A model generated the notes under the pieces. That model was not told the DNA's origin. It was given only the letters and a program-made list of their open reading frames with translations, and searched no databases. From positions 1-26,174 of IMG/VR virus record IMGVR_UViG_3300003873_000091: a stretch of DNA of 26,174 nt, one strand, 5' to 3'. Below are positions 5,480-20,581 of the stretch, piece by piece. Position numbers and translations under genes: made by a program. The stretch comes from a virus. How positions within the stretch are numbered: position 1 is the first letter of the stretch; each line of letters starts with the position of its first letter.

Positions 5480-6892
5480 TTAAAGTTGATTTCTATATCT
5501 TTTATTTTTCTGTATTTTACGATATAGTTTTATATCTTTTAGTAACGAGTCTATGTTAAGATTAGTTATTATAGACGTATCTATTTTAGCTTCTAACATC
5601 TTTATACTACCTAATATGATAGCACCTTGAGCTTCGTTCTTAGTACTACTAAGTTTCTTTATAAAACCATCTATCTTATCTCTTATAGCCATTTGTTTCT
5701 TTATTTTCTCTTTATCTGCTTTTGGATTATTTGCTAATAACTCATTATCAATAACAGCATTTAATTTATCATTATATGGTAATCCATATACTTCTGTATT
5801 TTTGGCATATTGTAAGAAGTAATATGCTAGTAACCAAGCTATAACAAGGTCATCGTGTTCGCCTGTATCGTGGTCTACTCTGTTACCAGCTATCTTTAAT
5901 CCTGATAACTGATTAATTAAAGTAGGGTCATATACAGCATTTGAAGTAAAGTTTAAACTAGCTCTAAAAACATTTCCATATAGCAAACCTCTAGATTGTT
6001 CTCCAGCACCTGCAGTAGCAAAACCAAAAGCTTTCTTATTCTTATCTAAGTTAGTCATAGAGGGTAACTTATTTATTAACTCATTATCGCTAACTCCGTT
6101 AGGTTTCATAGTACCATTTACTATGCGATTGAATATTCTTTTAAAAGGATTCATTTTCTTTAATAACATAATTCTAAACATATTATCTAAAATAGCCATA
6201 GCAGATGATTTTCTTTCAGGAATTAAAATAGACTTAGGAAACTCTTCTAATAACTCTACTAAAAAGTCTGCAAAGATTGATAAGTTAATTTCGTTATAGT
6301 TACCAGCTCCTATAACAGCCCCTGTGCGACTATCTCTTATAACTAGACCAATACCATCTGATTTACCACCAAGAGCATCTGAGGTATCTAAACCGATGAT
6401 TAAGAAGTGTTCTCTTGCAAGTTTTTGTAGTTGATATAATGGAACATAAAATTTAACTACAAAACCATATTTAGATATAAAAGGAGTATACTTATTTCTT
6501 TTACTATTAACAACAATATCTAATAATTCTTTAGGTATAGGATTGGTATCGTTACCATTAATCCATTTATTAAAGTAATCTGATTCAGCATTTTCACCTG
6601 AACTAAGTGCCGCTGCTAATCTTTCTCTTAGCCACGCATCCGTAAAACCTAGTTGTCTATGATTATACTCTAATAACATTACTTTAAACATCTTAGAATT
6701 CTTCTCTAAAATATTATCTAAAACATCTATATTTTTAGAATCAAAGAACTTCTCGTTCCATCTTAATGACTCGTTATAAACCTTGTACGCAAATCTACCA
6801 TCAGGAGAGTTTAACTTTCCAGGAGTTGTTGTGAACATAGTGTAATATGGCGCGTTAGCTAACTTAGCAGCTTCGCGTGCGGCCTTCTTATT
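5480..6892 (-). CDS. terL: Terminase large subunit, exon 2 (C-terminal part, nuclease domain)
   Basis: About 470 residues continuing the ATPase encoded at 8603-9355 after removal of the group I intron. It opens with a segment typical of terminase ATPase domains just after Walker B (KKAAREAAKLANAPYY, then FTTTPGK, the coupling motif). The RNase H-like nuclease follows: IIGLDTSDALGG with a metal-binding Asp, LIPERKSS with the conserved Glu, and HDDLVIAWLLAY with the closing Asp. Together these subunits cut concatemeric DNA and pump it into proheads. Upstream of the first codon the frame is closed by a TGA, and the TTG at 6893-6895 lacks a ribosome-binding site, so independent translation is unlikely. 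Joined to exon 1 the protein would be about 720 residues. Confidence 0.88.
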   Translation of the reverse strand, partial: NKKAAREAAKLANAPYYTMFTTTPGKLNSPDGRFAYKVYNESLRWNEKFFDSKNIDVLDNILEKNSKMFKVMLLEYNHRQLGFTDAWLRERLAAALSSGENAESDYFNKWINGNDTNPIPKELLDIVVNSKRNKYTPFISKYGFVVKFYVPLYQLQKLAREHFLIIGLDTSDALGGKSDGIGLVIRDSRTGAVIGAGNYNEINLSIFADFLVELLEEFPKSILIPERKSSAMAILDNMFRIMLLKKMNPFKRIFNRIVNGTMKPNGVSDNELINKLPSMTNLDKNKKAFGFATAGAGEQSRGLLYGNVFRASLNFTSNAVYDPTLINQLSGLKIAGNRVDHDTGEHDDLVIAWLLAYYFLQYAKNTEVYGLPYNDKLNAVIDNELLANNPKADKEKIKKQMAIRDKIDGFIKKLSSTKNEAQGAIILGSIKMLEAKIDTSIITNLNIDSLLKDIKLYRKIQKNKRYRNQL

Positions 6893-8612
6893 CAATCACA
6901 ATCGCTAATTGTAACCAGCACCATGACGTGCGTCTACTTCTTTCGTATAGGTTCTTCTAGAACCAAGTAGAATAGATCATATCATAATCTTGTCTAATAA
7001 TTCAATTTTAATTTCTTTACTAACAGAATTTAAGTGTCTAAGGGTAATGTTTTCTAATGGTATATTTTTTATATCTTCTATATTATAAAACTTACTTATA
7101 TGGTCCATAACATTGAATGTACTTAATATATACTTTATTTTATCTTTCTTAATATCTTTAAATATATATACTTTATTAGAGAAAGCTTTACCTGCTCTGG
7201 AGAGTAAAATCCTTTTAAGGGAATATTTTTTCCATGGCAAAATTGTCTCGCCATCTCTAATAAATTGTATATTATAACCAACGACTAACTTACTAGTATC
7301 ACTACCATCACGTCTCGGTACTATATCTATTCGTTTAATATTAATAAAATGTTTTTTCATTATAAAAAGCCTAATACTTTCCCTAGTCTTAAATGTACGA
7401 ACAAGTTCACCAGTATTAACCATATCTTTAACTAGATAGTATCCTCTACCTGTATTATATTGTCTTTTACGATAACTATGTCGCTCATCTTTTATACGTT
7501 TTTCCGATATACTAAACTTGTTAAAACATTCATCTATGTCAAGTTGCTTAGAAGATATTATGTAACCTAGATTTAATAAAAAATTCTCACTAAGTCTCTT
7601 AATACTCCTGATACCTGTATCATATGTTAAAGTACCTATACTTAAGTATTTCGTTATTTTATTTGTTAAACGATCATAGCAATAAATTTTACTCCCATGT
7701 AAAGAAGAGTTTAAATTATTTAGATATCTTTCCAAATCTAATATTGTTACAATATACCTATTAAGAATGGGGTATTTTTTAGAATATTTAACATAACCAA
7801 TAAAATGTTTTAAATCTATTTTTAATATTTTAGAAAATTGTTGTAATGATTGATATGTTGTAGTGGTATTAGTTTTAATGTCATAAGTCGTAATACTATT
7901 ATTTAGAGTCGATAAACCACTACTGTATGCGTGATTAGTGTTATCTTTAGCGGTACTCCATTCAAGGTTTACCGTTTTATTATTAGTCTTTACGCCGTCT
8001 ATATGATTAACTTGCGGTTTTTTATATGGGTTAGGTATAAAAGCGTTTGCTACAAGCCTATGTATAGATAGATTGTGTTTTTTATTACCTATTCTAATAG
8101 AAACACGCGAGTAACCATTTAAACTACGTAAAGGTTTTAAAATGTATTTTGTCTCTCTATTTATGACATCACCGTCACCACTGACAGCATATGTTTTATT
8201 CTGTTCTATTTCTTTAAATTGTTTTTTATTAAATATAAGCATTGTTTCTCCTGCAATATAATCGCCAGTGAAACTGCCTACATAAGATTAACTCCGTTTC
8301 GATTTAAGGGATTCGATACCCACCTGCTTAGGCCCTACACCTTACTAAAGGGTTGATCGTTGAACTCATACTCTCTTATTACTAAGATAACTTTCGTTAT
8401 TTAAGGTACTTCGCTGCGTCGGTTGTCCATTGTATATCTTTTAGTGTTTTTACCTTGCCACAAATTTCCATTACTGATTGTGGTGTTATAATATATTTCT
8501 ATTTATAAGTGGTAACTATAAGCTTTAGGAGTTTCCCGCAATTAGGAGTTGTTCACTATAGCCTCACGACTATAGCGGTCATTATTATACAAATTTCTTT
8601 GTATAACGTTTA
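6893..8612 (-). other. Group I intron (subgroup IA-like) interrupting terL
   Basis: Read on the minus strand, the core elements of phage T4 td-type introns appear in order. P2 is a 10-bp hairpin capped by a GUGA tetraloop (CGCTATAGTC-GTGA-GGCTATAGTG, about 8576-8553). The P element AATTGCGGGAAAC is near 8542-8530, and Q is AACCGACGCAGCGAAG near 8423-8408. R is TTCAACGATCA, followed by CCCTTTAGTAAGG and GTGTAGGG as P7.1/P7.2. S is ATGATATGATC near 6984-6974, and GATCA in R pairs with TGATC in S to make P7. P9-like hairpins follow. The HNH gene fills the loop between R and S. The 3' boundary is probably the G at 6893. The 5' boundary lies between 8612 and 8603: splicing after GTT (8612) gives TV-NKK, after TAT (8603) gives KRY-NKK; both are in frame. 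The exact U-G pair of P1 could not be fixed. Confidence 0.85.
6977..8242 (-). CDS. Intron-encoded HNH homing endonuclease (NUMOD4/HNH type)
   Basis: 421 residues with a strong ribosome-binding site AGGAG 6 bases before the ATG. The N-terminus has a NUMOD4-like segment (YAVSGDGDVINRETKYILKP, about residues 18-37). The HNH core of the HNH_3 type follows: HRLVANAFIPNP, then QVNHIDGVKTNN and LEWSTAKDNTNHAY (about 61-106). The C-terminal half has repeated short units that look like NUMOD1-type DNA-recognition modules (YDIKTNTTTTY and YDRLTNKITKYLSIG). Such enzymes cut intronless alleles and spread the intron by homing. It sits in the intron's P8-side loop, in the same direction as terL. Its TGA stop lies within the S element of the ribozyme core. 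The long C-terminal part (about 200-421) is only partly explained. Confidence 0.9.
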   Translation of the reverse strand: MLIFNKKQFKEIEQNKTYAVSGDGDVINRETKYILKPLRSLNGYSRVSIRIGNKKHNLSIHRLVANAFIPNPYKKPQVNHIDGVKTNNKTVNLEWSTAKDNTNHAYSSGLSTLNNSITTYDIKTNTTTTYQSLQQFSKILKIDLKHFIGYVKYSKKYPILNRYIVTILDLERYLNNLNSSLHGSKIYCYDRLTNKITKYLSIGTLTYDTGIRSIKRLSENFLLNLGYIISSKQLDIDECFNKFSISEKRIKDERHSYRKRQYNTGRGYYLVKDMVNTGELVRTFKTRESIRLFIMKKHFINIKRIDIVPRRDGSDTSKLVVGYNIQFIRDGETILPWKKYSLKRILLSRAGKAFSNKVYIFKDIKKDKIKYILSTFNVMDHISKFYNIEDIKNIPLENITLRHLNSVSKEIKIELLDKIMI

Positions 8613-9355
8613 ACAGTTGCTGATAATAATACTGGTAGTGATGTTTCTATGTTATAAATATAACCGAATTCATCTACCCTAGCAGTAGGTATTGTCTGAC
8701 CACGACCCATGTTATCGGCGGCTTTTTTATCTTTCTGACCAACATATATATTAAGTATATTACCAAAGGCTCTATTAGTAAGTTTCTCAGTATTTTTGAT
8801 ATCTTTCTTACCCACTACTTGTAAATAAAGTGGTAGTAGTTCTACTAAATCTCTGATAGCATTCGCAGTCCTTGCCCGAAGTTTGTCATCCTTAGTTAAT
8901 AGGAACAGGTCAGAGTTAGCCGCACCTATATTTAATGTATAAGCATCAAGAGCATTACCTATTAAAGATTTCCCAGTTTGACGAATCTGTATAAGGTATG
9001 TCGTTATATGATTAAATGCTAACCATAATGTTGAAATATTTGCACGATTAGCGGTTAATGGTAGCGGGGTATTACCAGCTGGAGGAGGTACTCTTAATAC
9101 TTCTCTAAAGAAATACCAAGGATTAACCTTACATTCCACGGCTATAGCTACTTTTTGATTAACTGTTAAGTTCTCATCATAAGGATCTACTCCCTGTAAA
9201 TCTGGGTTATGTAATGCTAAATGAAAAGTATTATTCTCAATACTCATCTTTCTTAATAGTCCTGCAAATCTTAAGAAACTAATATTCTTTGTTTTAATGT
9301 CTACTATGGCAGAGAAGTTCTCTGGCTTAGCCCAATCTTCTTTAAATAAAATCAT
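8603..9355 (-). CDS. terL: Terminase large subunit, exon 1 (N-terminal part, ATPase domain)
   Basis: About 248-251 residues starting at an ATG with AAAGGAAA upstream on the minus strand. It carries the packaging ATPase: IQIRQTGKS with the Walker A-like RQTGKS at 125-130, and Walker B VDEFGYIYN with Asp228-Glu229. The frame continues a few codons into the intron (to 8585) and stops, so an unspliced message gives a truncated ATPase without nuclease. Exon 2 resumes at 6892. No copy of the recurrent promoter motif precedes it; the divergent 9356-9458 region must contain a different promoter. Confidence 0.9.
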
Positions 9356-10263: not shown

Positions 10264-11364
10264 ATGATAAATTTAGAAGATAAAAAAGAAGTACTGTATA
10301 CTGAGGGATTAGTTATTAATCCAGATGTTAAATTATTACACCATACACCGTTAAAAGTGGCTGATATCGCTATAGGTAATTGTTGGGATAAACAGAGAGG
10401 TGATGATGAGATTGACTTTGATAGAATGTATAAGGTTGCTAATAAATTCAAACATGCTAGTACTATAGAACATATTAACTATAACTTCTCTTTAAAGAAC
10501 ATAAGTCGTGCAGTTCTAATAGAATTATCGCGTCATCGTATAGCAAGCTATAGTGTTAAGTCTACCAGATATACACTTAAAGAGCTAAAGAACGAAAAAC
10601 CTTTTATAGAGGATGTACAGTATATAGATAATGAATTATTCATTAAACTTAATCCATCACAAGTATATCGTGCTGGTAAATATCTTATCTTCACAGGAGA
10701 TTTTGAAACAGATAAAGGTTCTATACTTGAACTAGAAGTATTGAGAAATACTATAGTTAAAAATGTCTCTAATGATAAGGCTAAGTATAACCTACCTGAA
10801 TCTTATAAGACTGAAATAGCATTTACTATAAATGCTAGAAGTCTACAAAACTTCTTAGATTTAAGAACTAATAAGGCTGCATTGTGGGAGATTAGAAAAC
10901 TAGCATATACTATTTTTGATAGTTTACCAGAGAGTCATAAATTTCTCTATACTAAACTACCTGATGAATGGTTTATTAATGCTAAAAAGAGATACTTTGT
11001 AAGAGACGAGTTGTTGTCTAGCGAGTGGATGAAAAAACATATAGATGTAATTTCTAAAGGTCATAATACTAGTAACAGTCATCTGGGCTGTTGGGTTAAT
11101 GATGACGAAGTTACTCTTAATGAATTTAAAGATTTGGTAGATGAGAAAGACTTTAGATTGAATACTTACAATTTAAACAAAACATGTACTGAGGGTGTTG
11201 CTAAGGATATTAGTTCTTTTATATTAGGAATTAATGACAAAACTAATACTCTACAATACACGGTTAAAGAATTCAATATTGAAAGAATAAGAGGTTTCCT
11301 AAATGTCTATAGAAAAACATACCCTAACGAAAACAGAGAAGAAACTAGTAGTAAACAGAGTTAG
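10264..11364 (+). CDS. thyX: FAD-dependent thymidylate synthase ThyX with C-terminal extension
   Basis: 366 residues with AAGGAAA upstream. The ThyX signature is RHRIASYSVKSTRY (90-103), matching RHRxxSxxxxSxRY, with Ser97 where many members have Asn. ASTIEH (65-70) and the later NARSLQNFLDLRT with WEIRKLAY form the flavin/dUMP-binding side. The enzyme makes dTMP from dUMP using methylene-tetrahydrofolate and FAD; with the upstream dCMP deaminase it forms a short dCMP-to-dTMP path. Typical ThyX proteins are 210-260 residues, so the last 110-130 residues (from about 240, containing GCWVNDDEVTLNEF) are an added domain I do not recognise. The 3' end overlaps the next gene by 62 bases. Confidence 0.92.
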   Translation: MINLEDKKEVLYTEGLVINPDVKLLHHTPLKVADIAIGNCWDKQRGDDEIDFDRMYKVANKFKHASTIEHINYNFSLKNISRAVLIELSRHRIASYSVKSTRYTLKELKNEKPFIEDVQYIDNELFIKLNPSQVYRAGKYLIFTGDFETDKGSILELEVLRNTIVKNVSNDKAKYNLPESYKTEIAFTINARSLQNFLDLRTNKAALWEIRKLAYTIFDSLPESHKFLYTKLPDEWFINAKKRYFVRDELLSSEWMKKHIDVISKGHNTSNSHLGCWVNDDEVTLNEFKDLVDEKDFRLNTYNLNKTCTEGVAKDISSFILGINDKTNTLQYTVKEFNIERIRGFLNVYRKTYPNENREETSSKQS

Positions 11365-13416: not shown

Positions 13417-15249
13417 ATGAAAGAAATTATGAGACCTGACGGTGTATGGATTAATAGTGATGTTGTTGAGAAATCGTTTTTAGAAGACAATATCGTTATA
13501 GATAAAACTAATATGGAAATGAAAGAGTTTCTAGATAGACATTATAGTTCTTACTTACAACAAAATGTAATATCTAATAGATATAAAACTACTGAACATT
13601 TAACTAAGTATTATGATACTAAATTAGAGGATATATTAACTAAAGAATTTATAGAGGATAATATGCCCGAGGTTAAGATTAGTACTCCTATAATTTTAGA
13701 TGTTATAAAGAATAACAAGAAATTAATACATAGTCACGATGGTGACTGTGATGGGATAACTAGTGGTGCTATTGTTAGTAAGATGTTGAAAGGGTTATTC
13801 GATTATGATAACTTTGAAATATTCACTAGTAGTAGGAATGATGGTTATGGTGTTAATGATAAGGTTACTGAAGCTATATTAAAGTATAAAGATATAAGTT
13901 TAGTCATGACTAGTGACCATAGTAGTAGTGACAGGAAGAATCTTACTAGAATAAAAGAAGGGTTGAACTGTAAAGTAATAGCTACCGACCATCACCTTTT
14001 TGAAGAGAAGACTGCTCCTTTAAATATGGATGTTTTTGTAAATCCTCAGAGAGATACTTGTAGTAAAGACTTTAAAGATTTGAATGGAACACATGTTATA
14101 TATTATACCTTGCTACATGCTTTTCTTTCTAGCGATATTGAAGTTACTGAAGATAAGAAGAATTATTACTACTATCTTTTAATGTATGTTGGGTTAACTA
14201 TCATATCCGATTGTATGGATTTAAAGAACTATATAAATAGAAAGATAGTTATTAAGATGTTAACGATGATGAATAGTAAACATACTAAACATGATATGTT
14301 CTGGAAAGTTACTATTAATAGACTTCGTAATAGTAAAATATTTGATGAGTCTACTATAGGTTATAATGTTAGTCCTATAATAAATAGTTCTGGTAGATTA
14401 GGTATTCCTAGACTTGGTTATGAGTTAATGGTATCTGAAGATTTAGATACTACTATGAAACTTTATGACGATATTACTGAGGTTAATAAGACTAGAAAAG
14501 AGAGACAAGATGTTGCTGTTAAATCTGATAAGAACCTTAGTTATAATGATGGTAAAATCTATATAGGATTAATGGAAGGAAGTGAAGGGGTACAGGGTAT
14601 ACTTTCTAATACAGTTATGTTTAATGAGAATTATAAAGTAGCTATAATCTTTACTAGAACTAAGGTTAAGGATAAGTATATTTTACAAGGTAGTGGTAGG
14701 TCTCAAGATGAAAATTTACATCTTAAGAATATACTAGATAATATTAGTAAGAAACATGATATAATAATAACTCATGGAGGTCATCAGAAAGCTATAGGTA
14801 TAAAGATAAAAGATGATATGAAATTATTCTATAAGATACTTAAAGAAGAGATAGATAAAACTAATGTTAAGAAGATAGAGAATTTTAGAGTTAGTAGTCA
14901 TATCTATAGCGATAAGAAGCTTATACTAAACATATTCGATATGATAGATATAGGTCCGTTTGGTATAGGGTTTGAGAAGCCTAATTTTGTTAGTGACTTT
15001 TATATCGAGAGTTATAGAGTATTTAAAAGAAATAAGTATTTTGTAACATTGAAAGTTAAGTTAGATAAAACTAGTAGAAACAGTTTTACAGTATTTTATA
15101 ATGTTAAAGATAAGGACATAGAAGAATTTGATAAAGGTATTATGAACCATAAGTATATTAGATTAGTATATACTATAGGTCTTAATAGTTATAGGAACTT
15201 TAATAGTATACTATTAAACGGTATAGATATGAAATTCAAGAAGTACTAG
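13417..15249 (+). CDS. DHH-family phosphoesterase, RecJ-like nuclease
   Basis: 610 residues with AAAGGA upstream. RecJ/DHH motifs appear in order: HSHDGDCDGITS (105-116) as motif I (H-x-D-x-D-G); SDHSSSD (166-172) as motif II; TDHHLF (190-195), the DHH motif; IISDCMDL (262-269), the conserved Asp; INSSGRLG (322-329), like RecJ I-N-A-A-G-R; GSGRSQD (425-431); and THGGHQKAIG (452-461), the GGH of the DHHA1 substrate domain. These support a Mn/Mg-dependent 5'-3' single-strand exonuclease or a close relative, probably for phage recombination, repair or host DNA degradation. About 90 extra N-terminal residues precede motif I. It heads a three-gene operon, in divergent orientation to 12119-13345. 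Confidence 0.88.
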   Translation: MKEIMRPDGVWINSDVVEKSFLEDNIVIDKTNMEMKEFLDRHYSSYLQQNVISNRYKTTEHLTKYYDTKLEDILTKEFIEDNMPEVKISTPIILDVIKNNKKLIHSHDGDCDGITSGAIVSKMLKGLFDYDNFEIFTSSRNDGYGVNDKVTEAILKYKDISLVMTSDHSSSDRKNLTRIKEGLNCKVIATDHHLFEEKTAPLNMDVFVNPQRDTCSKDFKDLNGTHVIYYTLLHAFLSSDIEVTEDKKNYYYYLLMYVGLTIISDCMDLKNYINRKIVIKMLTMMNSKHTKHDMFWKVTINRLRNSKIFDESTIGYNVSPIINSSGRLGIPRLGYELMVSEDLDTTMKLYDDITEVNKTRKERQDVAVKSDKNLSYNDGKIYIGLMEGSEGVQGILSNTVMFNENYKVAIIFTRTKVKDKYILQGSGRSQDENLHLKNILDNISKKHDIIITHGGHQKAIGIKIKDDMKLFYKILKEEIDKTNVKKIENFRVSSHIYSDKKLILNIFDMIDIGPFGIGFEKPNFVSDFYIESYRVFKRNKYFVTLKVKLDKTSRNSFTVFYNVKDKDIEEFDKGIMNHKYIRLVYTIGLNSYRNFNSILLNGIDMKFKKY

Positions 15250-15280: not shown

Positions 15281-17338
15281 ATGATAAGAGCTGGTTTAGA
15301 GAGTTTAATACACGAACAACTTAATGATTGGATTATACCTGAGTTGAATAATCTATATGTTAGTCTTGAGAAAGTCTTTGGACTATACTACGAGAAGAAA
15401 ACTATTAGTAGAAAAGATTATGAAAGAGATTTTGATAAGATTGTAAATGATTTTGAAAAGACTACTACTGAAAGGTTTGGATTTAGAGTTACCTTAAGGG
15501 CATCCACTACATTTGCTATCATGCCTATCTTTAATACTGATACATTAAAAGCTAGTGTATATAGTGTTAATAGCTTTAATAAAGATGTTAACCACAGTAT
15601 AAAACAACTTAAGACATTTAAGAAAGATTTAGTTAATGGTAATGATATAACTATAGATTTAGTTAAAGCTAAAGTATATGGTTTAAGTAAGGATACTTAC
15701 TTCCCATTATTTATACATAAACATATGATATATAGTAAAAAGTTTGACCTTACTAACTTCATTACTATTATGTTACATGAGATAGGACATGTCTTTACGC
15801 TGTTAGAGATGTTTACTAGTACTAATAAAGCTATAACTTCATTAGCTGATAACCTTATATTAAATAATGATATAGATGGTCTTATAAGTGATTTAAACAT
15901 AACGGCTGATAGAAACCTTAGCTCTAAAGATAAAGTTGTTAAAGTATACGATACTATTACTGGTGATTTAGGAAAAATACAATTAGCTAATGGTAGGGTT
16001 AGCGATAACACTGATATAGAGTTCGAGGCTGATAACTTTGTAGCTAAGTTTGGTTATGGTGGAGATTTGATTAAGACTCTTAATAAACTAGTTGGTGTTA
16101 ATGAGAATGAAAGAATAATAGTCATAATTTTTAGTCTATATTATTTAACTACAATGGCATTATTTAACTTAATACTAATTACATTTTCTATAAATCCTAT
16201 TAGTATATTCTTATTGCTAGGCATCTTTACTGTTATAGATATAGTGTCTAAGATTACTAGACTATCTAGTATTAGTGATAATAGGAACCCTTCTAATGGA
16301 GAGCATGGAGATTTTCTTACTAGATATAAGAGAAGTCGTAGTTCTATGATAGCTATGTTAAGGAACTATACTTTAGATAAGACTGAACTTAAAAGCTTGA
16401 TAAATCAGATAGATACTATAGATAAAGAAATAGCTAAGTTAGATAAGAGTTTATTTAATTCTTATTTTGGTTCTTTAATGCATGAGTCTTTAGGTGTTAA
16501 TTTAAACCTTAGAGATAAATTAGCTACACTAGTAGATAACACTATTAACAATGATTTACACTTAATGAGTGGTAAGTTTAAAGCTGGGTTAGAAGCTAAA
16601 GACTTTATGGATACTGTAGGTGTTGTTTATACAGAAGTTAAGTTTAGTGGTATGTATGATAATAGTAGATATTTTGCTAGTTTATTAAAGATTAAAAAGA
16701 ATACTGTTTTACTTAATAAAGTTTTAGCTAAGTATAATTACGAGGTAAGATATGTTAAGGATGAGAAAAGTTTAGGTGTAAAATCTAATGAAATCATTAC
16801 TATCGCATCAGGCATTAGTGGCTTTGCTATGGTGCCAAAAGTAGTTACTAAGGATACAGCGGTAGTGTCAGTTACATTAGAATCAGAAAAGGTTATATGG
16901 TTATTAGAAAACCCTTATATACATGTTTATAACATTGATGTAATTAAGGTTAATGATATTAAGTACATATATGTAATGGAGATGGAACATATTAGTATAT
17001 TAGGTATTACTAATAGGTCTGATAAAATCTTAACTAAAATATGGGATAAGCTTAATAAACACCATGAAGACTACGGTGAAAGTGATGCGAGTATATTATT
17101 AGATATTATATTAGATATAAAGTTACCTAAAGTACTACACGAACAGTTTGTTTTGTTAAAAAAGTTAGTTAACGACTTAGATATTACCCCTCAGCTAGAT
17201 TTACATGGTGGTAATATCGGTACTAATAACAGAGATGAACTAGTGCTATTAGACCCTATATTTAATCAGGTTAAAGTCGGACTTAAACAGAATAACTATG
17301 TGGAGTTGAATTTAACTAAACTTTCTGATAAGGAATAG
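15281..17338 (+). CDS. Metallopeptidase-membrane-kinase-like fusion protein
   Basis: 685 residues with AAAAGGA upstream. Three parts are visible. (1) A zinc metallopeptidase-like domain: IMLHEIGHVF with HExxH at 166-170, and EFEADNFVAKFG with Glu249 as probable third ligand, the E-A-D-x-x-A pattern of M48 peptidases. (2) Two hydrophobic segments, about 279-300 and 306-322, placing both ends on the same side of a membrane, then RNPSNGEHGDFLTRYKR, which recalls the M48 H-P-x-x-x-x-R region, and a helical linker. (3) A C-terminal region with the eukaryotic-like kinase/aminoglycoside-phosphotransferase catalytic pattern: VMEMEHI as hinge, LDLHGGNIG (639-647; Asp640, Asn645) and LVLLDPI (654-660; Asp658). 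A classic Lys in the N-lobe is not certain. Neither activity is proven. It could cleave and phosphorylate membrane-associated host targets, which is inference. Confidence 0.75.
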   Translation: MIRAGLESLIHEQLNDWIIPELNNLYVSLEKVFGLYYEKKTISRKDYERDFDKIVNDFEKTTTERFGFRVTLRASTTFAIMPIFNTDTLKASVYSVNSFNKDVNHSIKQLKTFKKDLVNGNDITIDLVKAKVYGLSKDTYFPLFIHKHMIYSKKFDLTNFITIMLHEIGHVFTLLEMFTSTNKAITSLADNLILNNDIDGLISDLNITADRNLSSKDKVVKVYDTITGDLGKIQLANGRVSDNTDIEFEADNFVAKFGYGGDLIKTLNKLVGVNENERIIVIIFSLYYLTTMALFNLILITFSINPISIFLLLGIFTVIDIVSKITRLSSISDNRNPSNGEHGDFLTRYKRSRSSMIAMLRNYTLDKTELKSLINQIDTIDKEIAKLDKSLFNSYFGSLMHESLGVNLNLRDKLATLVDNTINNDLHLMSGKFKAGLEAKDFMDTVGVVYTEVKFSGMYDNSRYFASLLKIKKNTVLLNKVLAKYNYEVRYVKDEKSLGVKSNEIITIASGISGFAMVPKVVTKDTAVVSVTLESEKVIWLLENPYIHVYNIDVIKVNDIKYIYVMEMEHISILGITNRSDKILTKIWDKLNKHHEDYGESDASILLDIILDIKLPKVLHEQFVLLKKLVNDLDITPQLDLHGGNIGTNNRDELVLLDPIFNQVKVGLKQNNYVELNLTKLSDKE

Positions 17339-17682: not shown

Positions 17683-17749
17683 TGTGCTACATAGCAATCG
17701 TACTTTAAGGTACAACCGTCTCATAACGGTAATCTCTAAAGGAGAAATT

Positions 17750-17890
17750 ATGAAAACTAAATTAACTAAAAAAGAGTCATTTGATTTAAAATATCAAATG
17801 ACAACTTTAAGAATATCTATCGCTAAATTAGCGATAGAAATGGATCACCTTACTTATCAAAAGTGGGGGTATCTAATTAGCTATAATTAG
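17750..17890 (+). CDS. Small unknown protein in a hairpin-rich transcript (46 aa)
   Basis: The ATG at 17750 has a strong AAAGGAG ribosome-binding site 6 bases upstream. 46 residues, beginning MKTKLTKKESFDLK and ending GYLISYN; basic N-terminus, then an amphipathic helix (TLRISIAKLAIEM, about 19-31). The frame has a longer N-terminal extension with no credible start, so this ATG is preferred. Three perfect inverted repeats run through the coding sequence, so codons may be constrained by RNA structure. No function can be assigned. Confidence 0.55.
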   Translation: MKTKLTKKESFDLKYQMTTLRISIAKLAIEMDHLTYQKWGYLISYN

Positions 17891-17896
17891 TTTAAT

Positions 17897-17919
17897 GAAT
17901 AAGGTTAAAATCCTTATTC
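17897..17919 (+). terminator. Terminator after the small hairpin-rich unit
   Basis: 8-bp perfect stem GAATAAGG / CCTTATTC with a 7-base loop, followed by TTATTTTTTT: a conventional intrinsic terminator. Confidence 0.85.
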
Positions 17920-18007
17920 TTATTTTTTTATTAAATTTTATTTAGTTACTTATTATATGAAAAAGTTATTAATTTCTTTTTGGTTAAATATGTGAGAGGT
18001 TTCATTT

Positions 18008-18253
18008 TGGGCTAACCAAGCACTGACTTGTACAGAAATGTATAGACGAGAGCTTTGAGCTGCAGAATAAACCCAGTGAATTTATTATTCGCGACTTTTT
18101 CACATTTCCCACTCGGTTTGCTACGTGCTTCTTAACGGGAGTGCGTGGTCGACTACGGGACCGAACCCAGGTTAGCTAGCTTGGAAAAAAGAAGTAGCAG
18201 TTGGCTTAAATACCCCTAGCTGGAGGCGAGAGTCGTGAGGTTCACTCACGACT
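18008..18253 (+). ncRNA. Candidate structured non-coding RNA in a GC-richer block
   Basis: About 245 bp with clearly higher G+C than its surroundings, no ORF, and many possible helices. GCTAACC (18011-18017) pairs at long range with GGTTAGC (18170-18176), with an overlapping alternative CCAAGC/GCTTGG (18016-18021/18179-18184). TTGTACA-GAAA-TGTATAG has a GNRA tetraloop (18028-18045). GGTTTG/CGAACC (18115-18120/18162-18167) encloses CTACGTGC/GTGCGTGG (18121-18128/18141-18148, with wobbles). CAGTTGG pairs with CTAGCTG further on. The block ends in a 9-bp hairpin AGTCGTGAG-GTTCA-CTCACGACT (18231-18253). I could not match it to tRNA, tmRNA, RNase P, 6S or a group I core. The strand is assumed from neighbouring genes; the helices exist on both. 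Confidence 0.55.
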
Positions 18254-18762
18254 AAAAAATATATTAAAGAGTATTAAAATAATTAAAGATATTATAATAA
18301 TAGAGATACTATAGTTACATATATAACACTATACACTATAGCTATATACTTAAGCTATAAGTACTAACCTATATAAGTCTTAAGAGTTTTGATTTTGACG
18401 ATATGTTTTTTTTTACATAACATAACACTTTTTTTTTTAGTATGTACTATATGCCTTATGGTGTATAGTATATATGTTGTTATGTTCTATAATACTTTTT
18501 ATAGTATGTACTACATGTTCTTATGTGTTATACATCTCTTATATACTTATTCTTTTATAAGTAACTATAGTTAGATGGGAAAATTATAATCTGTAATAAT
18601 AGTGTTAATGTGTTAGTAGTGTATACATATGATGTTTTTTATATATTATTGTATTTTAATAAGTTATATAGATTAGCTATATGAAGTTAATTGTTAAATG
18701 TGAATAATGATATAGGTTTATAAAGATATTGTCTTTAAAGTGATTTAAAACTCTTTTTAAGC
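18254..18762. other. Very AT-rich non-coding stretch with short repeats
   Basis: About 500 bp of nearly pure A+T with T-runs (18405-18414, 18429-18438) and short inverted repeats (ACTATAG, CTATAG, ACTTAAGCTATAAGT). Two copies of the palindrome-like TAGTATGTACTA (18438-18449 and 18502-18513) each continue into a similar ATG..TTATG tail, 64 bp apart. The only ORF, a 61-codon frame at 18389-18574, starts at TTG without a ribosome-binding site and is low-complexity. Possible origin, promoter or spacer; nothing decides. Confidence 0.5.
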
Positions 18763-18788
18763 ATATATAATTAATATGTAGATAAACA
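18763..18788 (+). promoter_or_regulatory. Phage promoter motif, copy 6
   Basis: ATATATAATTAATATG followed by TAGATAAACA (one change). It lies 89 bp before the first ATG of the next gene. Confidence 0.7.
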
Positions 18789-18877: not shown

Positions 18878-19441
18878 ATGGATTTTAGTCATATATCTAT
18901 AGTAAATAGTAATGTTATAGATTATGTTATGGAGAAGAAACGTTTTGATAAGAAACTGGGTAGAAGAGATATACTTAATAAAGGTAAAGAGTTTGGTTTA
19001 GTTATAGGTAATGTTGATAAGTATAAAGTTGGTGATATTATAAAACCTTATTTAGAAGATAGTGTTAGAAAGGTTTTAGAAGGTGTTACTAGAGGGAATG
19101 TTAGGAAAGTTAGATGTAGTAGAAGTAAGAGTGAGGTTAGTTTACTAGACTTAGAAGAGTTCTTTATAGAGGATGATAATGGTCTTTATTACTGTGATGT
19201 TGATATAACTAGTGATATGTTAGATGAAGATAACACTATAGAGATAGTTACTAAAGATGTTAGTAAACATACTACAACTAGTGTTATGTATTTTAAAGTA
19301 TTGATATGTACATTTGACGATGATTTAAAATTAATTAAAACTGAAGTATATGGCGGCGATACTGATTATTTAAAACAATCTTGCTTTAACACATATATAG
19401 GTAGAGTTGAGGATGACAAGTTAGTATTAATAAAAGATTAA
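18878..19441 (+). CDS. Unknown phage protein with uncertain start (187 aa)
   Basis: The first in-frame ATG (18878) lacks a ribosome-binding site, and the frame is open and protein-like upstream to a TAG at 18798-18800 (it would read DIFKGEVNILGCEVTSFSLD before the Met). AAGGAT (18815-18820) and AAAGGTG (18828-18834) lie inside that extension, so translation may begin at a non-ATG codon such as ATA or ATT. The protein is rich in Asp, Lys and Val with short alternating hydrophobic strands, probably a beta-rich structural or binding domain; no family is recognised. It lies directly upstream of the tubulin but in a separate promoter unit. Confidence 0.7.
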   Translation: MDFSHISIVNSNVIDYVMEKKRFDKKLGRRDILNKGKEFGLVIGNVDKYKVGDIIKPYLEDSVRKVLEGVTRGNVRKVRCSRSKSEVSLLDLEEFFIEDDNGLYYCDVDITSDMLDEDNTIEIVTKDVSKHTTTSVMYFKVLICTFDDDLKLIKTEVYGGDTDYLKQSCFNTYIGRVEDDKLVLIKD

Positions 19442-19528: not shown

Positions 19529-20581
19529 ATGAAAGATAGAAATAAAGGACACTTAACAATTATAGGTCTTGGTGGTGCTGGGATTAAATCTGGTATAAAT
19601 GCTTATGAGACTATAGTTGATAATAAAGAGGCTTGTAGTGATATTGATATTAGACTTGTTGATACTACTGACAAAACTGTTATAGCATTTCCAGAGTATG
19701 TTGATAAGTTCTATAAAATAACTAGTAATAGAAGTTCTGGTGAAATAGATGGTTCTGGTGGGGAGAAAAGAAATCTTGAGGTTGTTAAAGATATAACTGA
19801 GAATATGAAAGATTATCTAGATAATGGTAAGTTCAAGAATAATAAGAATAATTATTATGTAATACTAGCATCTGTCTCAGGTGGTTCTGGTAGTACCGCA
19901 TCGGCTATACTACTAAGCCTTATGTTAAGTAAAGGTTATAATGTTATAGTTGTTGCTATAGGTGATACTAGTAGTTACCATAATCTTAAGAATACTTTTG
20001 GCGGACTAGCTAGCTTACAGAACATCGCTATCAAGACTAAGACTGCTGTAAGTGTTGTTTACTATAACAATACTGTTGATGGTAATACTAGTCTTGTTAA
20101 TGAGATAGATGTAAATAGTAAGATAAGTAAGATGTTAACTGTTATAAGTGTATTCATATCTGGTAAAGTTCTTAATATTGATAACCAAGATTATATCAAC
20201 TTCTTTAAACCAACTAACTATAAGACATTTACTGTTGATGCTGGTATATATGAATTAGTAGTATTTAAAGGTAATCTTGATGACCAGAATGCTTTAATAT
20301 CTAGAACTCTTCTGAAAGATGCTAAAGATGAATATAAGGTTGGTGTCGATTTAAGAAATAAGAAAGATGGTATTGCTACTAAAGAGATATGTGACTTAAT
20401 AGAAACATTCCCTTTACACTTAGTTATCAGAAAGAATGTGTTAACTGTAACTGCTAATGAACTCAATAAGAGACTAAAGGAATTGGATAGTTTAAACCAA
20501 TCTGATTATGTAGAATTTGAGGGTATTGACGATACTGTAACCGTGGACGATGATGACGATGATTTAGGGTTAATTTTATAA
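19529..20581 (+). CDS. phuZ: PhuZ-like phage tubulin (tubulin/FtsZ GTPase)
   Basis: 350 residues with AAAAGGA upstream. Tubulin/FtsZ features in order: IIGLGGAGIKSG (11-22), the T1 nucleotide loop; LVDTTDKTV (43-51), close to the F-D-T-C-D-K segment I recall from phage PhuZ; SGGSGSTAS (117-125), the T4 glycine-rich signature (G-G-G-T-G-S-G in tubulins); then IGDTSS and NTFGGLASLQNIA, and near 215-230 NIDNQDYINFF, a plausible T7 loop with the Asp residues that activate GTP hydrolysis in the next subunit. The C-terminus is an acidic tail (DDDDDD then LGLIL), as in PhuZ, where the tail drives filament assembly. PhuZ filaments position and rotate the phage nucleus and move capsids in jumbo phages. 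It is transcribed alone from its own promoter and terminator. Confidence 0.88.
   Translation: MKDRNKGHLTIIGLGGAGIKSGINAYETIVDNKEACSDIDIRLVDTTDKTVIAFPEYVDKFYKITSNRSSGEIDGSGGEKRNLEVVKDITENMKDYLDNGKFKNNKNNYYVILASVSGGSGSTASAILLSLMLSKGYNVIVVAIGDTSSYHNLKNTFGGLASLQNIAIKTKTAVSVVYYNNTVDGNTSLVNEIDVNSKISKMLTVISVFISGKVLNIDNQDYINFFKPTNYKTFTVDAGIYELVVFKGNLDDQNALISRTLLKDAKDEYKVGVDLRNKKDGIATKEICDLIETFPLHLVIRKNVLTVTANELNKRLKELDSLNQSDYVEFEGIDDTVTVDDDDDDLGLIL

Follow-up and report, generated by a model that had tools for sequence, protein, structure and literature searches.

A GC-rich block without open reading frames, located in an AT-rich phage fragment, raises the question of whether a structured RNA is encoded there and, if so, what kind of RNA it is and what it might do. 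The window, by which we mean the whole stretch of DNA analysed, is a 26-kb IMG/VR virus fragment (26,174 nt) with an overall GC content of 0.284. Among its genes are those for the tubulin PhuZ, for a RecJ-like exonuclease, for phrog_2921, and for a terminase large subunit (terL) that is split, together with phiKZ-type genes for virion proteins and a head maturation protease. This gene content assigns the window to an AT-rich phiKZ-like jumbo phage, for which the formation of a nucleus is presumed. This agrees with an earlier note on the locus, which had assigned it to an AT-rich jumbo phage. No close named relative of the window was found, and its protein matches in named phages were all below 60% identity. 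The RecJ-like exonuclease gene (13417-15249) precedes the phrog_2767 gene of unknown function (15281-17338, plus strand), which lies upstream of the block, and the PhuZ gene (19529-20581, plus strand) lies downstream of it.

Elsewhere in the window, the terL gene was found to be split on the minus strand (5480-9355) into two parts at 8585-9355 and 5480-6895. An HNH endonuclease gene (6977-8242) was located inside the gap (6896-8584), and a group I intron match below the gathering threshold was obtained at 8240-8601 (26.8 bits, E 2.9e-4). The arrangement resembles a group I intron within terL.

The GC-rich block and its predicted transcript

The earlier note had singled out a GC-rich block of about 245 bp without an ORF, and this observation held. 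The block (18008-18253) has a GC content of 0.476 against 0.284 for the whole window and is the GC maximum among all 246-bp stretches of the window. No ORF of at least 50 aa was detected within it, the closest ORFs being located at 17684-17890 and 18389-18574. The plus strand of positions 17990-18260 folded with an energy of -89.2 kcal/mol (z -3.73), and only 1 of 200 shuffled sequences folded equally well, whereas the fold of the minus strand was ordinary (z -0.41). The structure of the block is strand-specific and confined to the plus strand.

From this fold and the family alignment described below, a noncoding transcript of about 263 nt was predicted at 17992-18254 on the plus strand, with both ends inferred. 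In phiKZ, the late start site is the G of TATG (PMC4666361). A phiKZ-type late TATG motif, TTAAATATG, stands at 17984-17992 (plus strand), so the putative +1 position is G17992, and the RNA likely starts near it, slightly upstream of the block. The motif lacks the downstream AAATAAACA part; a fuller motif, similar to TTAATATG(T/C)AAATAAACA, is found ahead of several window genes. The predicted TATG promoters of the genes downstream of the RNA are located at 18771 and 19494.

Repeats similar to TATATATTATTAATATG(T/C)AAATAAACA were observed before plus-strand genes at 167, 4377, 9425, 17665, 18771, 19494, and 22596. Like the start of the RNA, their identity was inferred from sequence alone, and they likely resemble an extended late (TATG) promoter of the window phage. 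In the related phages considered below, the sequence ATATC(A/T)AAAT was observed on the 5' side of the RNA, a few tens of nucleotides before TGCG..CACT, in L356, L360, L510, L512, L173, and L126, with TATCTAAAT in G002. It resembles the late motif TATGTAAAT with C in place of G and may possibly be a start-site variant of the RNA genes. The AT-rich gap on the 3' side of the window RNA, before the gene at 18878, contains near-repeats at 18400-18530, such as AGTATGTACTA(T/C)ATG...TTATG.

Copies in related phages and their common architecture

When 50,697 phage records were searched with the block by blastn, only flank noise was returned. The same search against the records of related phages gave only chance words, and structure was therefore needed to find copies. 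The relatives themselves were retrieved by alignment of the terminase N-terminal domain (identity up to 69%), while single-protein scans with phrog_2767, PhuZ, and phrog_2921 yielded nothing. The GC islands located outside ORFs in the genomes of these relatives were read and compared, which revealed copies of the RNA in G002 (L126), G003 (L173), G004 (L128, 16440-16672), and G010 (L356), as well as two in G011 (L358 and L360). The pattern TGCGATCACT...CTAG...CGACC added two copies, G055 and G056. No further copies were obtained with the word patterns GAACAGTGGGGGAAA and GGGTGGGNGTGGGAGNATG, and an nhmmer profile built from three copies did not reach the window, its top non-self match being G003 (E 6). 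The clear copies, including that of the window, number nine in eight phages, all known from fragments of uncultured phages; the two copies of G011 (G011a and G011b) are diverged from each other within one genome.

A doubtful tenth candidate was noted in G004 (L128, 500-715), where a GC-rich structured block lies upstream of terL, in the same place as the copy of G002. It carries TGCGATACT and a hairpin with the loop UUAGCUGG, but in another helix, and could be a rearranged copy.

All clear copies share the same order of elements: CACU, the hairpin P2, G(A/U)C, a long hairpin P3, the hairpin P4, and a purine- or G-rich tail. In most of them the CACU element reads UGCGAUCACU, and the short linker to P2 often contains CUAG. 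P2 is followed by GACC or GUCC in the relatives and by GACG in the window. P4, whose stem is of the CC/GG type, is followed by (R)AA. Its loop is UUAGCURG in the branch that includes the window and CAACUA or CAGUUA in the other branch; the UUAGCURG motif was not common to the copies of G003, G004, G055, and G056.

The covariation of P3 and P4 was evaluated on an alignment of five copies from which the window was left out. In this alignment 95% of cells were paired, and 14 of the 21 pairs had changed on both sides. The covariation score of 0.795 exceeded that of the shuffled alignments (0.348; none of 500 as high) and fell to 0.07-0.18 when the alignment was slid. For P2, whose arms were cut by hand from eight sequences including the window, all cells were paired (100%), and each of the four pairs had changed on both sides. 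A covariance model, R1, was built from five copies without the window, G055, or G056, and it recovered the unseen copies of G055 (E 1.4e-12) and G056 (E 7e-4). Since compensatory changes preserve the fold across the relatives, we read the locus as a structured RNA, as the earlier note had proposed. That note had also named two outcomes that would refute it, namely a match to a known Rfam family and the absence of compensatory changes in homologous loci. Both were checked: no Rfam family matched, and the homologous jumbo-phage loci do show many compensatory changes. Thus, there is very little doubt that the RNA family is real and has a conserved fold in at least eight related phages, while its function remains unproven. 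The helix P1 and a small hairpin in the tail are possible elements of the family but remain uncertain.

The window copy and its parts

A referee may ask whether the window copy, which was left out of R1, belongs to this family. With default filters R1 missed it. With the filters off, the window block was third by score, with 8.4 bits and an E-value of 0.56 over the window; it is too divergent to be recognized by R1 alone. The match was the longest one, spanned the entire model, and sat exactly on P3, P4, and the tail. Taken by itself, the score of the window copy proves nothing, since a phiKZ stretch used as a control scored 9.8 bits in a match that left out most of the model. A regular-expression descriptor of P4 (CC/GG stem and UUAGCURG loop) matched at only four separate sites when 10.2 Mb of strand was scanned, namely G010, G011a, G011b, and the window, and at each of them CACU and a P2 with GAC behind it are also correctly placed. 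The P4/P2 descriptor was tuned after the window copy had been seen, which makes it less stringent as a test than a model built independently; it was therefore read together with synteny. The order RecJ, phrog_2767, RNA, PhuZ is identical in the window and in G004. The window copy also meets the family architecture, with P2 placed between CACU and G(A/U)C (18021-18048) and a long P3 between P2 and P4. On the P4 motif, the correctly placed P2, and the synteny, its membership in the family is very likely.

Within the window RNA, all elements of which lie on the plus strand, the conserved 5' element CACU(G) is located at 18021-18025, and its CACU is common to all clear copies. In some relatives CACU pairs with AGUG to form the tentative P1. 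In the window copy P1 was not established, and a structure with P1, P2, and P4 all forced was less stable than the best fold by about 16 kcal/mol. P2 (18029-18044; UGUACA-GAAA-UGUAUA) is a hairpin with a GAAA loop and pair probabilities of 0.93-1.0, and GACG (18045-18048) follows as the counterpart of the GACC/GUCC of the relatives. P3 (18116-18153, with a core at 18120-18149) is shorter than in the relatives; its pair probabilities were 0.94-1.0 across most of the core, and it covaries in the relatives. P4 (18167-18184; CCAGG-UUAGCUAG-CUUGG) matches the motif of three other copies, and its loop (18172-18179) is self-complementary. P4 is absent from the best fold of the window RNA (probability of about 0.15), and forcing P2 together with P4 costs 4 kcal/mol. 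The purine-rich tail (18185-18230), with UAAAUACC...UGGAGGCGAG, rests on sequence resemblance only, no base pairs being established, and is less G-rich than the tails of the relatives. The RNA ends in a 9-bp hairpin (18231-18253; AGUCGUGAG-GUUCA-CUCACGACU) that is followed by AAAAAA, without a U-tract terminator; comparable 3' hairpins were seen in G003 and G011a. Thus, both the GNRA-capped hairpin and the 9-bp 3' hairpin claimed in the earlier note held.

A further claim, that a long-range 7-bp pairing and an overlapping 6-bp alternative could form a switch, fared differently. The complements are present: GCUAACC (18011-18017) is complementary to GGUUAGC (18170-18176), and CCAAGC (18016-18021) to GCUUGG (18179-18184). 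They are not conserved, and neither is used in the best fold, the 7-mer pairing being missing from the minimum-energy structure of the window RNA. Of 1000 mononucleotide shuffles, 21 had a complement of this length to the P4 loop region, and in relatives with the same loop the longest 5' complement was 3-5 nt, which is at chance level. The 3' half of the proposed helix consists of the P4 loop and arm, which are part of a conserved hairpin, and the relatives that share this loop have no 5' partner for it; the riboswitch-like alternative is therefore not supported.

Possible roles and relation to known RNAs

The reading that we prefer, with moderate confidence, is that of a standalone structured noncoding RNA of a PhuZ-carrying jumbo-phage clade, probably late and acting in trans. 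The transcript, its ends, its timing, and its action in trans are all inferred, and there are no transcript data. According to this reading, the RNA would be transcribed late from its own putative TATG-type promoter and, instead of serving as an mRNA leader, would work in trans, either by itself as a folded RNA or in a complex with protein. More speculatively, the loop that P4 presents may bind protein or RNA. In the window branch the UUAGCURG loop is self-complementary at all eight positions when G-U pairs are allowed, and it could pair with itself to give a loop-loop dimer there. Since the loops of the other branch read CAACUA or CAGUUA, dimerization through this loop is ruled out as the general function. 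A bolder possibility, which we offer only tentatively, is a new class of trans-acting RNAs present at several loci of nucleus-forming jumbo phages, which might form defined RNA-protein or self-paired complexes required for replication or packaging in the phage nucleus.

Among the rival explanations, a cis-acting leader or riboswitch for the next gene (the 18878 gene or PhuZ) has in its favor that PhuZ lies downstream of the RNA in both the window and G004, that a same-strand gene is located a short way downstream in G010, and that the window copy contains mutually exclusive pairings. Against it, the next gene lies more than 600 nt away with its own predicted TATG promoter, the alternative pairing is not conserved, and the downstream gene is not constant across the copies; indeed, no neighboring gene of any kind is constant among them. 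Both G011 copies are placed between opposite-strand genes, so that the genes downstream of them are on the other strand. Because of this placement and of the separate motifs of the downstream window genes, the RNA is unlikely to be an mRNA leader throughout the family, and we give this explanation little weight. An origin role, for instance as a primer forming an R-loop through the G-rich 3' part, was considered since the neighbors lean towards replication genes: the copies of G010 and G011b are divergent from and adjoin a DNA polymerase gene, that of G056 adjoins a divergent DNA helicase gene, and the 3' part is G-rich in most copies. However, other copies adjoin a terminase gene (divergent, in G002) or PhuZ, an RNA polymerase beta subunit gene is nearby in G055, and G011 has two copies. 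No turning point of the cumulative GC skew coincides with the copies, and the G-rich tail of the window copy is weak. An origin RNA thus also appears improbable.

The remaining alternatives have still less support. Through Shine-Dalgarno-like tracts (GGAGG, GGGGGAG) the RNA could bind to 16S rRNA and thereby change the translation of host or phage; the tails of the copies do contain tracts of purines or of G (GGAGG, GGGGG), and an unrelated phiKZ ncRNA partly co-sediments with 30S (PMC8545117). Yet the tracts are variable (the window has GGAGG only), there are no ORFs, and the case rests on resemblance alone, which makes a ribosome-directed RNA very unlikely. A degenerate mobile RNA, either a group I intron remnant or a transposon guide RNA, would be in keeping with the several loci per clade and with the occurrence of group I introns in these phages. 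The block, however, gave no group I match at E up to 10, although the terminase intron was detected in the same window, and no conserved nuclease or transposase was found beside the copies; we regard this origin as highly improbable. Finally, the block might not encode an RNA at all and be a chance GC island or a DNA element, given that GC islands may have other origins and that the copies are few. The strand-specific fold, the covariation with G-U pairs, and the recovery of unseen copies by a structural model leave very little room for this explanation.

With the standalone RNA as the preferred reading, its relation to known families was considered. The window had no match in Rfam 15 at gathering thresholds, permissive Rfam searches with the block (E up to 10) and with the eight copies of the relatives yielded nothing beyond chance matches under the gathering threshold, and ARAGORN detected no tRNA or tmRNA. 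Thus, the statement of the earlier note that the block did not fit tRNA, tmRNA, RNase P, 6S, or a group I core held. With tmRNA, RNase P, and 6S RNA the only likeness is the size range, without a gathering-level match. The group I intron (RF00028) is a structured RNA of the same window, in the terminase gene, but nothing in 17880-18400 matched it even with E-values of up to 10 allowed. The nearest RNAs in kind, though not in sequence, are GOLLD, ROOL, and OLE, which are large ornate RNAs that form homo-oligomers with conserved RNA-RNA contacts (PMC12286853); like them, the present RNA is large and structured, with a conserved architecture. Unlike their oligomers, its dimerization is only possible, from a self-complementary loop in four copies. 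The ncRNAs found in phiKZ by Grad-seq, derived from the PHIKZ298 3' UTR and the p40 5' UTR (about 100 and 180 nt; PMC8545117), are likewise structured and belong to a phiKZ-type phage, but they are UTR-derived and two-stemmed. The p40 leader was examined as a homologue and rejected, as it gave only partial R1 matches and no common sequence was recognized by eye. Within the limits of Rfam 15 and the open-access literature searched, the family is new, while phage RNAs that are structured and stand alone are, as a general category, already known.

Few phage ncRNAs have been described (21 were counted in a 2021 paper; PMC8545117), and the RNAs of jumbo phages are scarcely explored. Antisense oligomers have been described as a tool for phage functional genomics (PMC12571901). 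With copies next to genes for DNA polymerase, helicase, terminase, and PhuZ, the family offers a handle on whether these phages employ structural RNAs in replication, packaging, or the phage nucleus, and the family model with its coordinates makes the RNA directly testable.

Two other GC-rich or structured blocks were observed in the course of the analysis. A structured block of another kind, about 120-130 nt long (AGTACTGCTC...GACGAAG.GGAGA.GTGGAA), occurs at three places in G017, near-identical in L371 (2930-3050) and L366 (1-130) and similar in L372 (1560-1700). Each lies directly before a ribosome-binding site and a start codon, and a repeated 5' leader RNA is possible; one copy compared with Rfam gave no gathering-level match. 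In L019, an AT-rich phage fragment, a purine-rich block with 68% GC (10771-11030) contains a long hairpin and is bordered by polypyrimidine flanks.
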